A stretch of DNA of 47,186 nucleotides from contig SIRX01000152.1 in NCBI GenBank assembly GCA_004563715.1, positions 1 to 47,186 of the forward strand, given 5' to 3'. A program made the position numbers and the translations under genes. A model generated the notes under the pieces. That model worked only from the letters and a program-made list of their open reading frames with translations, searched no databases and was not told the origin of the DNA. This DNA is from Actinomycetota bacterium (GTDB lineage Bacteria > Actinomycetota > Rubrobacteria > Rubrobacterales > Rubrobacteraceae). How positions within the stretch are numbered: position 1 is the stretch's first letter; every line of letters starts with the position of its first letter. Positions 27,648-36,958 of the stretch are shown here, in pieces.

Positions 27648-27797
27648 ATGGCGCGGGACGAGAAAGGTATCAGAAGTCACGACGGCGAGCACGGGGTTGC
27701 GGGGGCTTCGCACGCGGAGCACGGTGGGGGTAAGGAGACCGGGGAGCATTCCGGGCACGCCGGGCACAGCGTGGCGATGTTCCGGGATCGCTTCTGA
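27648..27797 (+). CDS. His-rich N-terminal piece of CopB, ended by an in-frame TGA
   Basis: 49 residues with eight His in motifs such as SHDGEHG, ASHAEHGG and HSGHAGHS, the metal-binding N-tail usual for CopB ATPases. It ends MFRDRF followed by TGA. ATG at 27648 has a GGAGAGG ribosome site. The next gene starts with GTG directly after the stop in the same frame. CopB relatives normally read through here (MFRDRFW-like), so this is most likely the detached N terminus of the ATPase rather than an independent protein. Confidence 0.7.
   Translation: MARDEKGIRSHDGEHGVAGASHAEHGGGKETGEHSGHAGHSVAMFRDRF
27795..27797 (+). other. In-frame TGA in the copB reading frame
   Basis: The TGA stands between FRDRF and VSLALSVPVVLYSEMIQ. 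Family members carry Trp (TGG) or another residue at this position, so a single G-to-A change would explain it. The sequence stays in frame on both sides. Confidence 0.75.
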
Positions 27798-29735
27798 GTG
27801 TCGTTGGCACTGTCGGTGCCGGTGGTGCTCTACAGCGAGATGATCCAGATGTGGTTCGGGTTCTCGATGCCGGAGTTTCCCGGATCGATGTGGATTGCTC
27901 CCGTGCTGGGCACGTTCGTGTTCTTGTGGGGTGGCTGGCCGTTCCTTGGGGGCGGCGTCCGGGAGGCGCGGGAGCGGCAACCGGGGATGATGCTGCTCAT
28001 AAGCATGGCGATAACGGTCGCCTTCGTGGCGAGCGCGGCCACCACCTTCGGCTTTTTCGACCTGGACTTCTGGTGGGAGCTGGTGTTGCTGGTGACGATC
28101 ATGCTGCTCGGACACTGGCTGGAGATGCGGGCCGTGGGGCAGGCGTCGGGGGCGCTCGAGGCCCTGGCGGCGCTCCTGCCCGATGAGGCCGAGCGGGTCG
28201 GCTGGGACGGTGGTGCGGAGAAGGTCTCGGTCGGAGACCTCGCCCTCGGGGACGTGGTGCTGGTGCGCTCCGGCGGGCGGGTTCCGGCGGACGGAGAGAT
28301 AGTCGAGGGGGCCGCAGAACTGAACGAGTCGATGATCACCGGCGAGTCCAAGCCGGTTCCGAAAGGAGCGGGGGACCGGGTCGTGGCCGGGACGGTGGCG
28401 ACGGACTCGGCCATCCGGGTAAAGGTGACGGCCGTGGGCGAGGAGACGGCGCTGGCCGGCATCCGCAGGCTCGTGGAAGAGGCGCAGTCTTCCCGTTCGC
28501 GGGCGCAGATGCTGGCGGACCGGGCGGCGGCGCTGCTCTTCTACTTCGCGGCTTCGGCGGCGGTTATCACCTTCGTGGTCTGGATGGTCTTGGGGAACCC
28601 GGGCCAGGCGATAGAAAACACGATGACGGTGCTCGTCATCTCCTGCCCGCACGCTTTAGGGCTTGCGATACCGCTCGTGATCGCGCTCTCGACGGCGCTC
28701 TCGGCCAGGCACGGCATCCTCATCAAAGACCGCCTCGCCCTGGAGCGGATGAGGAGCGTGGACGCCGTCCTCTTCGACAAGACCGGCACGCTCACCAGGG
28801 GGGAGCCCGCCGTGACGGGCGTGGCATCCTTGCGTGACGGCGAGGATTCCTTGCTGGCGCTCGCCGCCTCGGTGGAGGCCGACTCCGAACACCCGCTCGC
28901 CCGCGCTATAGTCGCGGCGGCCAAAGAGAAGGACCTGGAGATCCCGGCTTCGAGCGGCTTCCGCTCGATCACCGGGCGCGGCGTGGAGGCCGAGGTTGAA
29001 GGCTCGAAGATCGCCGTCGGCGGCCCGGCGCTGCTGAGGGAAGCTGGTATAGGGAGCGTCGAACCGCCGGAAGAATTACGCGGCACGGTAGATGCCTGGA
29101 AGGCGCGGGGGGCGGCGGTGCTGCACGTCGTGCGCGACGGTGAGGTTACCGGCGTGCTCGCGCTGGAAGACGGGGTCCGGCCGGAATCTCGGGAAGCGGT
29201 AAAAGAGCTGCACGAGGCGGGCATCAGGGTCGTCATGATCACGGGCGACGCAAGCCAGGTCGCCGACGCCGTGGCGGAAGACCTCGGTATAGACGAGGTC
29301 TTCGCCGAGGTCTTGCCCGAGGACAAGGACCGCGTCGTCGCCGAGCTTCAGAGGCGTGGAGAACAGGTGGCGATGGTCGGCGACGGCGTCAACGACGCCC
29401 CCGCTCTCGCCCGGGCCGACGTCGGTATCGCCATAGGCGCCGGCACCGACGTTGCTATAGAATCGGCGGGTGTCGTGCTGGCTTCGAACGATACGCGGGC
29501 GGTTCTGGGGGTCGTGAGGCTCTCGAAGGCCGGCTACCGCAAGATGCTCCAGAACCTCGTGTGGGCGGCGGGCTACAACGTGGTCACGGTCCCCGTGGCC
29601 GCCGGGGTGCTCGCCCCCGTAGGCATACTCCTCGCACCCGCCGTAGGCGCGGTGTTGATGAGCGCCTCGACCATCGTCGTGGCTCTCAACGCCCAACTAC
29701 TGCGACGTCTGGACCTCAGGCCGGGGCGAACCTAG
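27798..29735 (+). CDS. copB: CopB-type P1B copper/silver ATPase (core, after the TGA)
   Basis: 645 residues containing the complete ATPase core: the first membrane helix (VSLALSVPVVLYSEMIQ), actuator TGES, the metal site SCPHALG (CPH, typical of CopB/P1B-3, against CPC in CopA), DKTGTLT, SEHP and GDGVNDAP. The final helices have AGYNVVTVPVAAG and MSASTIVVALNAQ. GTG at 27798 directly follows the TGA; no Shine-Dalgarno precedes it, so expression would need reinitiation or readthrough. It exports copper or silver and lies downstream of a CsoR-type operator. Confidence 0.9.
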   Translation: MSLALSVPVVLYSEMIQMWFGFSMPEFPGSMWIAPVLGTFVFLWGGWPFLGGGVREARERQPGMMLLISMAITVAFVASAATTFGFFDLDFWWELVLLVTIMLLGHWLEMRAVGQASGALEALAALLPDEAERVGWDGGAEKVSVGDLALGDVVLVRSGGRVPADGEIVEGAAELNESMITGESKPVPKGAGDRVVAGTVATDSAIRVKVTAVGEETALAGIRRLVEEAQSSRSRAQMLADRAAALLFYFAASAAVITFVVWMVLGNPGQAIENTMTVLVISCPHALGLAIPLVIALSTALSARHGILIKDRLALERMRSVDAVLFDKTGTLTRGEPAVTGVASLRDGEDSLLALAASVEADSEHPLARAIVAAAKEKDLEIPASSGFRSITGRGVEAEVEGSKIAVGGPALLREAGIGSVEPPEELRGTVDAWKARGAAVLHVVRDGEVTGVLALEDGVRPESREAVKELHEAGIRVVMITGDASQVADAVAEDLGIDEVFAEVLPEDKDRVVAELQRRGEQVAMVGDGVNDAPALARADVGIAIGAGTDVAIESAGVVLASNDTRAVLGVVRLSKAGYRKMLQNLVWAAGYNVVTVPVAAGVLAPVGILLAPAVGAVLMSASTIVVALNAQLLRRLDLRPGRT

Positions 29736-31801: not shown

Positions 31802-31845
31802 CCGGCTGAAGCGAGCCGCCGAAAGGGAGGGCTCGCTTCAGCCGG
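31802..31845. terminator. 16-bp hairpin overlapping the sbcC stop codon
   Basis: CCGGCTGAAGCGAGCC pairs perfectly with its copy at 31830-31845, with a 12-base loop. The right arm contains the sbcC stop codon (31838-31840). It sits between convergent genes, and neither side shows a U-run. Confidence 0.6.
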
Positions 31846-34699
31846 ATGAGACCTCGCCTATGAGGGGGGCGGCGGGGTCTTGCCCGGCGCGCCGGACGGT
31901 GCTCTTGCCGTCCTCGTCTTCCTCCAGCATCCAGACCTCGTCCACGAGGGCGGCCTCCTGCACCTCCCCGACGTGGGAGATGACAAAGATCTGCCCGAAG
32001 GACTTTTTCAGCCGTTCCAGGGCGAGCAGCACGTTGTTGCGGCGCTCGTCGTCCAGGCTGCCGAAGACCTCGTCGAGCACGAGAAAGCCCAGGGTCTCGC
32101 TGCTCCGGGCGGCTATTATCTTGGAGAGCGCCACCCGGGCCGAGAGGCTGGCCACGTCCGCCTCGCCGCCGGAGAAGCGCTCGATAGCGTAGGAGTCGTC
32201 GAACCGGTCGAGTAGCCGAACCCGGTAGTTGTCGTCGAACTCCAGCCGCTCGTAGCGGCCGTCGGTGAGGTCCCGCACCAGGCTCGACGCTTCGTTCTCC
32301 AGCGTGGGGCGCACCCGGGAGGTGAGGCTCCGGAAGAACTCGGTGAACAAGACGTCCATCTCGTCCATCCGGGACGCGGCCGCCGCCTGTTCCCCGGCGA
32401 GCTTCCGCTCCGCCTCGAACCGCTTGAGTTCTCCGGTGAGCGTGTCTATCAGGTGCTCGGCGTCCTTCCACTCGTTGCCCAGGTGCTCCCGGGCATCCCG
32501 GAGCCGTGACAGCTTCTCTTCGGTTTCGGTGACCTGGTTTGCGGCGGCTTCGTACTCCCCCTCGTCAAAGCCGAGGACGGAGACCTCCCGCCGCAAACCG
32601 GCGGCTCTCGCCTCCGCCGCCCGTGCTCGCTCCCGGGCCTCCTCGAGCGCGCGCTCGATTCCGGGCCGCCTCCGTACCCGGCGCTCCAGCTCTTCACACC
32701 GGCCCCGGCCCCTCTCCAGCCGGTCTTTCTCCTCGCGCAGCTCTTCGTGGACCCGGGCTTCGTATGCGGCGCCGTCCAGCGTCTCCAGCTCGGATGAGAG
32801 CGCTTCGGCCCGCCTCCGGAGGCTGGCGTGCTCCCGGGCCAGGCTTTCCACGCCGGGCCGGGCGTCCCGCAGCGCCTGCAGCCGCTCGCACCGGCCGCGC
32901 GCATCTTGCAGCTCCTCGTCGGTGGGGGCGGCGGTTTCGGAGACCCGCTCCTCCAAGCCCCGGACCCGCTCCCGGGCGTTTTCCAGGGCTTCGAGGCGGG
33001 CCCTGGCCCGTTCCTGCGCCAGGCCCAGCGCCTCCCGGAGCTCCCGCCAGCGGCCGAGCTTGCCCGAGACCTTCTCCAGCCGCTCCCCGGCGGCCTCCGC
33101 GGAGGCGGTGAGCTTCCCGGTCTTTTCTTTCTCGCGGGCGGCGCGGCGCCGGAGGGAGGCGGCCTGACGCCGGAGGGTGTCCAGGATCTCGTCCTGCTCG
33201 CCCGCGACGAAGGGCCGCCGGCAGGTCGGGCAGTGGTCCTCCACGCCGCTTTCTATGGCTTTTAGTGCCTTGTCTACGTTGCCCGCCTCCTGCTCGTCGG
33301 CGCTGTTCCGCGCGCGATGCCCGGAGGCGAGCTCCAGCAGCTTCTGGCGCTCCTGACGCAGCTCGTCCTCCCGGCGTTCCAAGTCCTCGCCGCCGGAGAC
33401 GTCCTCGGTCTCGGCCGCCAGCCGATCCACCTCCCGCCGGGCTTCGTCGTGGCCCTCCCGCGCCCGCCGGGCTTCTTCTTCGGCCCGGCGCAGCTCCTCG
33501 TGCCCTTCCCTGAGCTCCCGTAGCTTCTCGTGCCGCTGCTCGGCCTGCTCTAACGAGCCGGCGGCCCTCTCCAGCGCCCGGGCCGTCTCCTCCAGGAGCT
33601 CCGGCCCGTCCAGCTCGAAAAGGGCGTCCCAGCCCTCAACCGGCTCTTCGTCCCGGCCGTCCAGATCCTCCAGGATGTCCCAGACCCCGGACTCGATCCT
33701 GGAGATCCTCTTCCGGGCTTCCAGAAGCTCCGCGCGGGCCGCCTCGCGCCGCTCCACGCGCCGCCGCTCCTCCTCCAGGGCCTCCAGCTTCTCCGTCAGA
33801 TCTGGCAGCCGGGAGATCTGGGGTCTCAGCCGCCCGAGCTCCTCTTCGGCGGCGTCCAGCTCCTCCAGTTCCTGCTCCGCTGCCGAGGCCCGGTCTGCCG
33901 CCCGGTCCCGGTCGCCCTCGGCTTTCCGAAGCTCGCCCGAGAGCCGGTTGTGCTCCCGGTAGGAGGTCTCCAGCGCCGCGCGGGCCTCGCGGGCGGCGTT
34001 CAGCTCCTCCCGCGCGCGCTCCATCTCCTTGACGACCCTATCCAGCTCCTCCTCGACGCGGTGGAGCCCGGCGCGCTGCTCCTCCAGGCTCTTTTCGATC
34101 GCCGCCGGGTCGGCGGCGTCGAGGCGGGACTCCAGCACCCGCACCTCGGAGCGGAGCTGGTTGCGGTCCTCCCGCAGGAGCTTCTGGGCGTCCTCCACCC
34201 GGCTGATGCCGAGCATCCGGCTGACGCGTCGCACCCGGTTTATGCCGTCGTCGTGGGCGAAAAAGCGCAGCTCCTTTTGCCGGGCGAAAAAGGTCGCCTC
34301 GAACGCCGTCCGGTCCATGCCCAGCAGGTTCTCCTCGACCCACCGGGTGACGTCCGAGGAGCCCTCCACGATCGTCTTGCCCGAGCCGTCGCGGGCCTCG
34401 GCCGCCGTGGAGCCGCTCTTGAGCTGCCGCCGGACGGTGTAGGAGTCGTCGCCGAGGGCCAGGGTCACCTCCACAACCGTGGGGTCCTTGGCGGAGCCGC
34501 CGCTCCAGGGGATCAGCTCGTTGGAGAAGCGGGGTCCGCCGCCCCGGCTTCCGAAAAACGCCCACAGGATGCTCTCGAACAGGCTGGATTTGCCGGAGCC
34601 GTTGCGCCCGATCACCCCGATGGCCCCCTCCGGTGGATAGAGTTCCAGCGGGTCGTGCAGCTGCTTGTAGTTCTCGATGTAGAGGCGCTCCAGGATCAC
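31838..34699 (-). CDS. sbcC: SbcC-like SMC-type nuclease ATPase
   Basis: 953 residues of the SbcC/Rad50 type. Walker A is GRNGSGKSS at 31-39, long Glu/Arg-rich coiled coils follow, and the zinc hook CPTC is at 490-493. The C terminus has the signature FSGGEADVASLSARVALSKI and Walker B FLVLDEVFGSLDD. It processes DNA ends and hairpins with SbcD. GTG at 34699 overlaps the sbcD stop (GTGA). The stop codon lies within a long hairpin. Confidence 0.93.
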   Translation of the reverse strand: MILERLYIENYKQLHDPLELYPPEGAIGVIGRNGSGKSSLFESILWAFFGSRGGGPRFSNELIPWSGGSAKDPTVVEVTLALGDDSYTVRRQLKSGSTAAEARDGSGKTIVEGSSDVTRWVEENLLGMDRTAFEATFFARQKELRFFAHDDGINRVRRVSRMLGISRVEDAQKLLREDRNQLRSEVRVLESRLDAADPAAIEKSLEEQRAGLHRVEEELDRVVKEMERAREELNAAREARAALETSYREHNRLSGELRKAEGDRDRAADRASAAEQELEELDAAEEELGRLRPQISRLPDLTEKLEALEEERRRVERREAARAELLEARKRISRIESGVWDILEDLDGRDEEPVEGWDALFELDGPELLEETARALERAAGSLEQAEQRHEKLRELREGHEELRRAEEEARRAREGHDEARREVDRLAAETEDVSGGEDLERREDELRQERQKLLELASGHRARNSADEQEAGNVDKALKAIESGVEDHCPTCRRPFVAGEQDEILDTLRRQAASLRRRAAREKEKTGKLTASAEAAGERLEKVSGKLGRWRELREALGLAQERARARLEALENARERVRGLEERVSETAAPTDEELQDARGRCERLQALRDARPGVESLAREHASLRRRAEALSSELETLDGAAYEARVHEELREEKDRLERGRGRCEELERRVRRRPGIERALEEARERARAAEARAAGLRREVSVLGFDEGEYEAAANQVTETEEKLSRLRDAREHLGNEWKDAEHLIDTLTGELKRFEAERKLAGEQAAAASRMDEMDVLFTEFFRSLTSRVRPTLENEASSLVRDLTDGRYERLEFDDNYRVRLLDRFDDSYAIERFSGGEADVASLSARVALSKIIAARSSETLGFLVLDEVFGSLDDERRNNVLLALERLKKSFGQIFVISHVGEVQEAALVDEVWMLEEDEDGKSTVRRAGQDPAAPLIGEVSSG

Positions 34700-35847
34700 G
34701 GCGGGGGCTCCCCGCTCGTCGCGCGCGCCAGGTACCCGCGGCCTTTCTCCAGGAACTCCTCGGCGAACCGCTTCTCCAGCTCCCCGCGCTCCCGCCGGGC
34801 GGCGACGAACGCTGCGAACTCCTCGCCCAGCGGGCCGAACACGGCCGTCGCTGGGGCGGCGTCCGCCTCTTCCGGCCTTTGTTCGGCGTGGATCTCCAGG
34901 CTGAAGTTCAGGCAGCGCCGCTGGAGGTCGCGCAGGAGGTCGCGGTCGACGCCGCTCGGCACCCCGCGCTGCACGTCGTAGGCCCGGAGGCGGACCACCG
35001 CGCCGTCCAGGTCGGCGTCGGCGGTGCGGGCCCGGATCCCCTCCGTAAGCCCTTCGGCGTCCAGGCCGTGGGCGGAGATCTTGGGCAGGTCGATCATGGG
35101 CCGCGCCTCTATCGGGACGTGCTCGACCGTGGGCGGCCCGCCGCCCGCGAGCTCCACCACCGCGAAGCCCGGAACGGAGGCGACCTCGCCGAAGCCGAAC
35201 CGCTCGGTCGCTCCGGCGTAGTAGGCGTTCTCCCGGTGCTCGTGGAACTCGTGGTAGTGGCCGAGGGCTACGTAGTCGAAGGCCCCTTCCAGCATCCCGG
35301 AGTGGAGGTTCGCCTCGCCCATCTCGTGCTGGCGCGTCTCCAGTTGCGGTACCAGGCCGTGGGTGACGAGGATGTTGACGTCCGCGTCGCGGTCCGGCAG
35401 CACGGCCCCCGAGCCGGCGACCGCGCCGTGGGGCACCAGGGTCACGCCCACGGCTACGTCACCGGCCGCCTCCACGCAGCGCTCCATCTCGAAGCCGTGG
35501 GCCGAGCGGGCGTTCACCAGGTTCGCGTACTCCAGGGCGGCGGTCGTGGTCCGCAGGCGCGGCGTCTCGTGGTTGCCGGCGGCAACCAGGTACGGGATGT
35601 CCGTGCGGGTAATGCGGAACGTCTGCTTCAGAAAGCCGATGATCACGTGCGTCGCCGGGCGCACCGAGTCGAAGACGTCGCCGGAGTGGATGACCAGGTC
35701 CACGTCCCGCTCCAGGACGGCGTCCACCACCCGCTTGTACGCCTCCTGCACGTCCACCTCCCGCTGGTTGCGGTTGGTTTTCGGGCACAGCTTCGAGTAG
35801 CGGGAGTAACCCAGATGCGTGTCCGAGATGTGGGCGACCCTGACTAT
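34696..35847 (-). CDS. sbcD: SbcD-like exonuclease subunit with apparent ATA start
   Basis: Mre11/SbcD nuclease partner of SbcC. VAHISDTHLGYSRYS (first metal motif) is encoded from 35838 down, then HSGDVFD, AAGNHETPR, THGL and GHYHEFHEHR. The first ATG/GTG/TTG in frame is GTG 35757, which would remove HISDTHLG and kill the nuclease. Upstream the frame reaches a TAA without any standard start. ATA at 35847 lies 10 bases after AAAGGG and gives 383 residues, the family length, with an opening (IVRVAHISDTHLG) matching other SbcD proteins. A G-to-A change of an ATG, or a non-canonical start, is the simplest reading. Confidence 0.85.
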   Translation of the reverse strand: MVRVAHISDTHLGYSRYSKLCPKTNRNQREVDVQEAYKRVVDAVLERDVDLVIHSGDVFDSVRPATHVIIGFLKQTFRITRTDIPYLVAAGNHETPRLRTTTAALEYANLVNARSAHGFEMERCVEAAGDVAVGVTLVPHGAVAGSGAVLPDRDADVNILVTHGLVPQLETRQHEMGEANLHSGMLEGAFDYVALGHYHEFHEHRENAYYAGATERFGFGEVASVPGFAVVELAGGGPPTVEHVPIEARPMIDLPKISAHGLDAEGLTEGIRARTADADLDGAVVRLRAYDVQRGVPSGVDRDLLRDLQRRCLNFSLEIHAEQRPEEADAAPATAVFGPLGEEFAAFVAARRERGELEKRFAEEFLEKGRGYLARATSGEPPP

Positions 35848-35878
35848 CTTCCGACGACCCTTTCTAGAAAGCCCCCGT

Positions 35879-35885
35879 TATTCTA
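35879..35885. promoter_or_regulatory. Symmetric bidirectional -10 between sbcD and the glycosylase gene
   Basis: TATTCTA reads as TATTCT forward and TAGAAT on the minus strand. Either could serve as the -10, giving divergent transcription of sbcDC and the glycosylase from overlapping promoters. Confidence 0.45.
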
Positions 35886-36046
35886 ACCGGATCGGCCCGG
35901 AGTTCACGGGTGTCGTTGTCCGGTGGAGGTTGCTGTATCCTCACGAGGATGCTCGTCACGAACCCCGAGAAGCCCGGAAGCGCCGGCGGAGCCCGGCCGG
36001 GAGTTCCCTCCTGAGCCCCGGACAGGAAATAGCGCAGGTTCCGCTC

Positions 36047-36958
36047 GTGGGCCCGGCGGGAGAGAGGGTAGACCTCGACCGCACCTTCCTCTCGCACGGC
36101 CTGACCTCGCTGCCCCCGATGCGGGTGGACCTCCCGACCCGGGCCTTCGAGGTCACCCTGCCTCTCGCCGGGTACCGGCCGCGCGTGGTGAGGATGTACC
36201 CCGGAAACCCGGGGTACGCCGGCGTCGCGGTAGCCGGCCCGCCTCCCGCAAGCCGGGAGAGCGTAGAGGTTCTGGCCGGCGTCCGGCACGTGCTGCGCCT
36301 GGACGAAGACCTCTCGGAGTTCTACGAGCTGGCCGCCGGTGACCCGGACCTCGCCTGGGCCGCGGGCGGGGCTGGACGCCTGGTGCGGAGCCCGACCGTC
36401 TTCGAGGAGGTCGTGAAGACCATCTGCACCACCAACTGCGCGTGGTCGGCCACGGAGCGCATGGTTGGGGCGCTCGTCGAACACCTGGGGGAGAGGGCGG
36501 CCGGAGCGGACCTCGTCGGAGGCTGGAACCGGGCCTTCCCCACCCCGCGGGCGATGGCCGAGGCCGGGGAGGAGTTCTACCGGGACGTGGCCCGCGCCGG
36601 CTACCGGGGACGCTACCTGCGCTCGCTCGTCACCTCGGTTGCCGAGGGTTCGCTGGACCTCGAAGCGCTGGGAGACGCCACCCCCGAGGAGCTGCCGGAC
36701 GGCGAGCTGGAGCGGCGGCTGCTGGCCCTGCCGGGCGTGGGACCCTACGCCGCCGCCCACGTCATGATGATGCTCGGGCGGTACTCGCGCCTGATCCTCG
36801 ACTCCTGGACCCGGCCCCGGTACGCGCGGCTCGCGGGCCGGGAGAGCGTGCCGGACGCGGAGATCGTCGGGCGCTACGCGGCCTACGGGCGGCACGCGGG
36901 GCTCGCCTTCTGGCTCTACCTCACGCGGGACTGGGTGGAGGCCGAAGGGTCGTCCTGA
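36047..36958 (+). CDS. HhH-GPD family DNA glycosylase
   Basis: 303 residues in the chosen frame. The helix-hairpin-helix is LPGVGPYAAAHVMM, and the catalytic Asp follows in LILDSW. The N-terminal half (LDRTFLSHGLTSLPPM, FEVTLPLAGYRP) resembles the AlkA-type domain of 3-methyladenine/8-oxoguanine glycosylases. It removes damaged bases. The frame is open far upstream, with TTG 35930 as an alternative start, but the extra 39 residues are Arg/Pro-rich and unlike the family. The start is therefore uncertain. It is divergent from sbcDC. Confidence 0.85.
   Translation: MGPAGERVDLDRTFLSHGLTSLPPMRVDLPTRAFEVTLPLAGYRPRVVRMYPGNPGYAGVAVAGPPPASRESVEVLAGVRHVLRLDEDLSEFYELAAGDPDLAWAAGGAGRLVRSPTVFEEVVKTICTTNCAWSATERMVGALVEHLGERAAGADLVGGWNRAFPTPRAMAEAGEEFYRDVARAGYRGRYLRSLVTSVAEGSLDLEALGDATPEELPDGELERRLLALPGVGPYAAAHVMMMLGRYSRLILDSWTRPRYARLAGRESVPDAEIVGRYAAYGRHAGLAFWLYLTRDWVEAEGSS

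Follow-up and report, generated by a model that had tools for sequence, protein, structure and literature searches.

The sbcD/mre11 locus

The window (the whole stretch of DNA analysed here, 47,186 nucleotides of contig SIRX01000152.1) belongs to a draft assembly of a soil bacterium of the Rubrobacteraceae, 3.47 Mb in 176 contigs. On its minus strand lie a nuclease gene of the SbcD/Mre11 type and, directly after it, the gene for an SbcC/Rad50-type ATPase. The features of this locus are as follows.

31838..34699, minus strand: sbcC/rad50 (Rad50/SMC models), with a canonical GTG start overlapping the sbcD stop (GTGA)
34696..35847, minus strand: sbcD/mre11 coding sequence, ATA to TGA, 383 codons plus stop, an archaeal-Mre11-type calcineurin-like nuclease (profile matches)
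35755..35757, minus strand: GTG, the first canonical in-frame sbcD codon, downstream of the motif and no credible start (sequence reading)
35809..35832, minus strand: HISDTHLG metal-binding motif, upstream of all canonical start codons in the sbcD frame (sequence reading)
35845..35847, minus strand: ATA, proposed sbcD/mre11 start codon (codon 0 of a sharp conservation edge; ATA or ATC in 24 of 35 family genes)
35858..35863, minus strand: AAAGGG, weak Shine-Dalgarno (SD)-like site 10 nt ahead of the ATA (sequence reading)
35878..35880, minus strand: TAA, in-frame stop bounding the sbcD frame upstream (sequence reading)
35880..35885, minus strand: TAGAAT, probable -10 promoter box of sbcD (putative; TAnAAT recurs in the family)

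From stop to stop, the sbcD frame occupies 34696..35877 (minus strand, 393 codons) and reads RGLSRKGRRK-I-VRVAHISDTHLGYSRY. Between the TAA and the motif its codons are CGG GGG CTT TCT AGA AAG GGT CGT CGG AAG ATA GTC AGG GTC GCC, and those of HISDTHLG (CAC ATC TCG GAC ACG CAT CTG GGT) follow directly. We take this motif to bind metal, from what is generally known of calcineurin-like phosphoesterases. Reading the window's codons, we found no ATG, GTG or TTG in frame between TAA 35880-35878 and HISDTHLG; the first canonical codon, GTG 35757-35755, comes only after the motif. An earlier sequence-only reading of this DNA had described just this arrangement, with the motif in frame upstream of the first GTG and AAAGGG (35863-35858) ten bases ahead of ATA 35847, and our reading agrees with it on each point.

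The sbcD product matched the Pfam calcineurin-like phosphoesterase model (PF00149) above its cut-off (E=1.1e-13). It differs from bacterial SbcD in scoring best to archaeal Mre11/Rad50 models: the top NCBIfam model was Mre11_Halo (E=2.3e-26, 92.8 bits), which outscored the model for bacterial SbcD sensu stricto (TIGR00619, 63.6 bits against a cut-off of 77.65), both matches falling below the models' own cut-offs. As in SbcD/Mre11 proteins, the phosphoesterase domain carries a D-x-H motif and the gene has an SbcC/Rad50 gene beside it. Because this ATPase gene adjoins and overlaps sbcD, we regard the pair as a bacterial Mre11-Rad50 (SbcDC) operon. The one-base overlap between the sbcC start and the sbcD stop recurs in 32 of 33 family operons, and the sbcC start is canonical in all 33 (GTG 25, TTG 6, ATG 2). 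Divergent to sbcD, at 35819-36958 on the plus strand, lies a gene resembling 8-oxoguanine DNA glycosylase (TIGR00588, E=1.9e-10, below cut-off), so that two repair-type genes share the sbcD upstream region.

sbcD start codons across the Rubrobacteraceae

The sequence-only reading had proposed comparing the start codon in related genomes. We detected sbcD homologues in 35 of 39 family genomes and at 19 named loci, and compared 35 distinct genes. The start codon was ATA in 19 genes, ATC in five, CTG in five, GTA in two (probable), TTG in two (L030 and L062) and GTG in two (L036 and L059). ATG was found in none of the 35, complete genomes among them. The five CTG assignments are based on position alone; they comprise L029, L033 and L035, and one codon upstream, L058 and L060. 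The GTA in L031 and L032, with a strong AGGAGGTG, is our own reading of the likely start and not the aligned codon, which is GCG. In 24 of the 35 genes the stretch from the upstream stop through to the end of the motif is free of canonical start codons, and in L011, L026 and L050 the sole canonical codon is a TTG within HISDTHLG itself. Homologues from outside the family (32-34% identical) use ATG (L180, L181) or GTG (L179) for a start at this position or close to it, and a further one (L182) has an in-frame GTG nearby.

That the window's ATA is a sequencing or assembly error, or an ATG mutated in this strain as the sequence-only reading had allowed, is next to impossible: ATA and ATG are a single transition apart and the 176-contig assembly is a draft, but ATA (19) or ATC (5) stands at the aligned place in distinct family genes from independent assemblies of different projects, large-contig assemblies such as G025 included, and no relative has ATG there. 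The G-to-A parallel that the same reading drew with copB fails as well, since that case concerns an in-frame TGA just before GTG 27798 and not a conserved start codon. The copB-like P-type ATPase gene (window 27780-27798, plus strand) reads ...MFRDRF, TGA, GTG 27798 VSLALSVP; the TGA stands just before its first canonical start, and a nonsense mutation or an error may have shortened the N terminus.

Two genomes (G007 and G036) each carry two sbcD copies on separate contigs, which may reflect mixed bins and not paralogues. In one locus (L063, G024 contig C14; 1303-1390 and 2063-2150) the intact sbcD is preceded, 760 bp upstream, by a degenerate duplicate of its first 30 codons. This remnant is 80% identical; it starts with ATA and has an internal TAG and a damaged motif.

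The coding edge and leader of sbcD

We measured pairwise identity at each codon position among the 24 genes with ATA or ATC, where only the third base of codon 0 is informative because the first and second are identical through the selection of these genes. Upstream of codon 0, identity was near random (about 0.25-0.5) with no three-base periodicity. Amino-acid agreement leapt at codon 0, from 0.12 at codon -1 to 0.76-1.0 at codons 1-5. Per-position identities were 0.84/0.92/0.33 at codon 1 and 0.48/0.92/0.35 at codon 2, where CGN and AGG arginine codons replace one another (amino-acid identity 0.92), and throughout codons 5-13 the amino acids were fully conserved with changes at third positions. 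The edge of conservation falls exactly at the ATA, which supports the earlier suggestion that starting there gives an N terminus matching the family. We consider the start position at ATA 35847 well supported by this comparison. The window's sbcD has in common with genes whose starts are discriminated by IF3 that no ATG, GTG or TTG occurs at its N terminus, and its non-canonical start is kept between species and coincides with a sharp coding edge.

Some relatives (for example L018, L021, AGGAATGAGAT) have out-of-frame ATGs near the SD, as if translation began at a canonical codon in another upstream frame and entered sbcD by programmed frameshifting or stop-codon readthrough. These ATGs are missing from most relatives and from the window, and the upstream sequence has neither coding conservation nor a shared slippery site; we rejected this route as extremely improbable.

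We give scarcely more credence to a start at a canonical codon of the sbcD frame itself, either upstream or internal (GTG 35757 or later). Being the first canonical codon, GTG 35757 would be picked by gene callers that accept no starts besides ATG, GTG and TTG, and SbcD would then be truncated N-terminally and lose the metal-binding motif. The resulting shorter protein would lack HISDTHLG, leaving out VRVAHISDTHLGYSR; the 30 codons lost rank with the best-conserved parts of the protein, vary at synonymous sites and include metal-binding residues. On the upstream side, several relatives have stops one or two codons ahead of the site (TAA ATC in L052, TAG ATC in L011, TAA AGA ATC in L024 and TGA GAT ATA in L012). 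These exclude an earlier in-frame start, and with a stop so close the ATC or ATA cannot be an internal isoleucine.

The leaders of the relatives contain AAAGGA or AGGAGG 5-10 nt from the start. Many have a strong AGGAGG at 5-6 nt; the window has the weak AAAGGG, 10 nt from its ATA, and a leader that is able to fold. A TAnAAT box lies 30-46 nt ahead of the start in 26 of the 35 family genes, a placing that suggests a short sbcD leader with its own promoter. We treat this promoter as putative, because a sigma-70 consensus scan requiring a -35 element detected no full sbcD promoter in the window.

Evolution and possible role of the weak start

On a maximum-likelihood tree of SbcD we counted at least 12 changes of start codon, of which only three crossed the divide between canonical and non-canonical codons. 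Swaps between ATA and ATC recur, and ATG never arises. Repeated switching of a weak start among codons, without a single case of ATG, is good evolutionary evidence of selection for weakness itself. The weak start is not obligatory, since TTG or GTG serves as the start in four genes of the family. Those four genes, and the strong AGGAGG that accompanies the weak codon in many relatives, would also suit a start that is genuinely weak and yet neutral, tolerated and not selected, with expression set by the promoter, the ribosome-binding site or autoregulation. We consider such neutrality unlikely, given that none of the 12 or more changes led to ATG, a single transition from ATA, and that sbcC in the same operon is always canonical.

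We think it probable that sbcD is read from AUA, and that its weak start is under selection, discriminated by IF3, and holds the coupled Mre11-Rad50 pair low. The near-cognate AUA (35847-35845) would be read by the ordinary initiator tRNA, inserting fMet, after a short leader with an SD-like site. Among the 30 of 43 tRNA loci that we read, three were CAU tRNAs, one of them initiator-like, and none was an initiator reading AUA; we rejected a special AUA initiator tRNA, having found only the ordinary CAU initiator-like one in this set. IF3 destabilises initiation complexes in which the codon mismatches the CAU anticodon. By rejecting complexes with a third-base mismatch, it would keep initiation on sbcD low, and purifying selection in the Rubrobacteraceae would keep the start weak while letting it drift among AUA, AUC, CUG and probably GUA, not AUG. 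In vitro, IF3 discriminates against pairs mismatched at the third base (PMC10158994).

With a one-base overlap between sbcC and the sbcD stop, the weak start of sbcD probably holds back both genes of the pair. The likely purpose would be to avoid a surplus of Mre11-Rad50 nuclease, which is potentially harmful. The conservation and interchange of weak codons across the family lend support to the sequence-only proposal that a rare AUA start tunes SbcCD down, and suggest that the Rubrobacteraceae keep SbcD/Mre11 scarce on purpose. From this pattern we infer reduced expression of sbcD and its control by IF3, with fMet use, low yield, IF3 sensitivity, coupling and a nuclease-limiting purpose as parts of the same model. 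The gene is possibly under the control of this translation factor to the extent of responding to its availability.

Comparison with known systems

To our knowledge, very few bacterial genes are known with purposeful non-canonical starts, and in the literature that we searched we found no earlier report of a non-AUG start for sbcD or mre11. The window's gene pair resembles SbcCD and Mre11-Rad50 in having a calcineurin-like nuclease gene with an SMC-type ATPase gene directly after it; sbcD adds a repair-nuclease gene to the examples of an already known mechanism. IF3 is reported or believed to keep expression low for infC (AUU/AUC), pcnB (AUU), sigR (GTC) and ccpN (AUA) (PMC5472188, PMC13009471).

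Like sbcD, infC has a near-cognate start (AUU, AUC or AUA) that is conserved within clades. Unlike sbcD, infC feeds back on its own expression in an autoregulatory loop; the product of sbcD is a nuclease, which would make this gene a target only and not the sensor. The sigR gene of Streptomyces is closer in being actinobacterial, with a conserved non-canonical start (GTC) in the first of two coupled genes (PMC5472188). There, replacement by ATG causes overexpression and IF3 represses the GTC start (PMC5472188); for sbcD such effects are predicted. The two also differ in that sigR encodes an oxidative-stress sigma factor and has a single conserved codon, while sbcD alternates among several weak ones.

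The AUA start of ccpN in Staphylococcus and Bacillus and the AUU start of staphylococcal cvfC1 are, like that of sbcD, conserved across species (PMC13009471). In S. aureus, AUA and AUU starts (ccpN, citZ, cvfC1) give about 10-30% of the AUG reporter yield (PMC13009471); for sbcD a reduced yield relative to AUG is predicted. Neither ccpN nor cvfC1 encodes a repair nuclease, and both have a strong extended SD in place of the weak SD-like site of the window. The pcnB gene of E. coli, as Binns and Masters 2002 is cited in PMC13009471, is held low by its AUU start and resembles sbcD in encoding a nucleic-acid enzyme with an inefficient start; it differs in its codon and in its product, a poly(A) polymerase. 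Culturable Rubrobacter species would allow the weak start of sbcD to be tested directly.

infC and other non-canonical starts in the family

In the family, infC, which encodes IF3 itself (loci L064-L093, and G000:C69:36819-37025), starts with GTA in most loci and with ATA in L085. The context in most is AGGAG TGGTGYACA GTA GCN, with a nearly invariant AGGAG. Such a start is as expected for an IF3-controlled gene, and the infC N terminus of this family would escape gene callers that recognise ATG, GTG and TTG alone. A more tentative idea, which we put forward as possible though doubtful, is that SbcCD abundance is set by IF3, whose own gene starts with GTA or ATA, and that Mre11-Rad50 is in this way placed under translational-fidelity control in the Rubrobacteraceae. 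If so, lower IF3 activity would bring more double-strand-break processing, and an IF3 regulon would tie DNA repair to the state of translation, in a lineage noted for radiation resistance.

We also screened about 150-160 orthologous pairs, drawn from the window and four further genomes and sorted by inspection, for genes whose N terminus is conserved but has no canonical start. The screen was rough, with noise from the G+C-rich neighbourhood, and sbcD and infC were the only clear cases. An earlier screen with G014 and G015 was uninformative because these genomes are very close and their upstream frames are conserved too. We rejected a genome-wide habit of odd starts, given the canonical sbcC starts in 33 of 33 operons and the rough screens, in which no genes but sbcD and infC stood out. 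Near infC, a trmH/spoU-like gene (L170, G025 C1 near 1,954,300) has ATC at its apparent start where G012 has ATG; it has no clear SD that we could see and may be a further non-canonical start.
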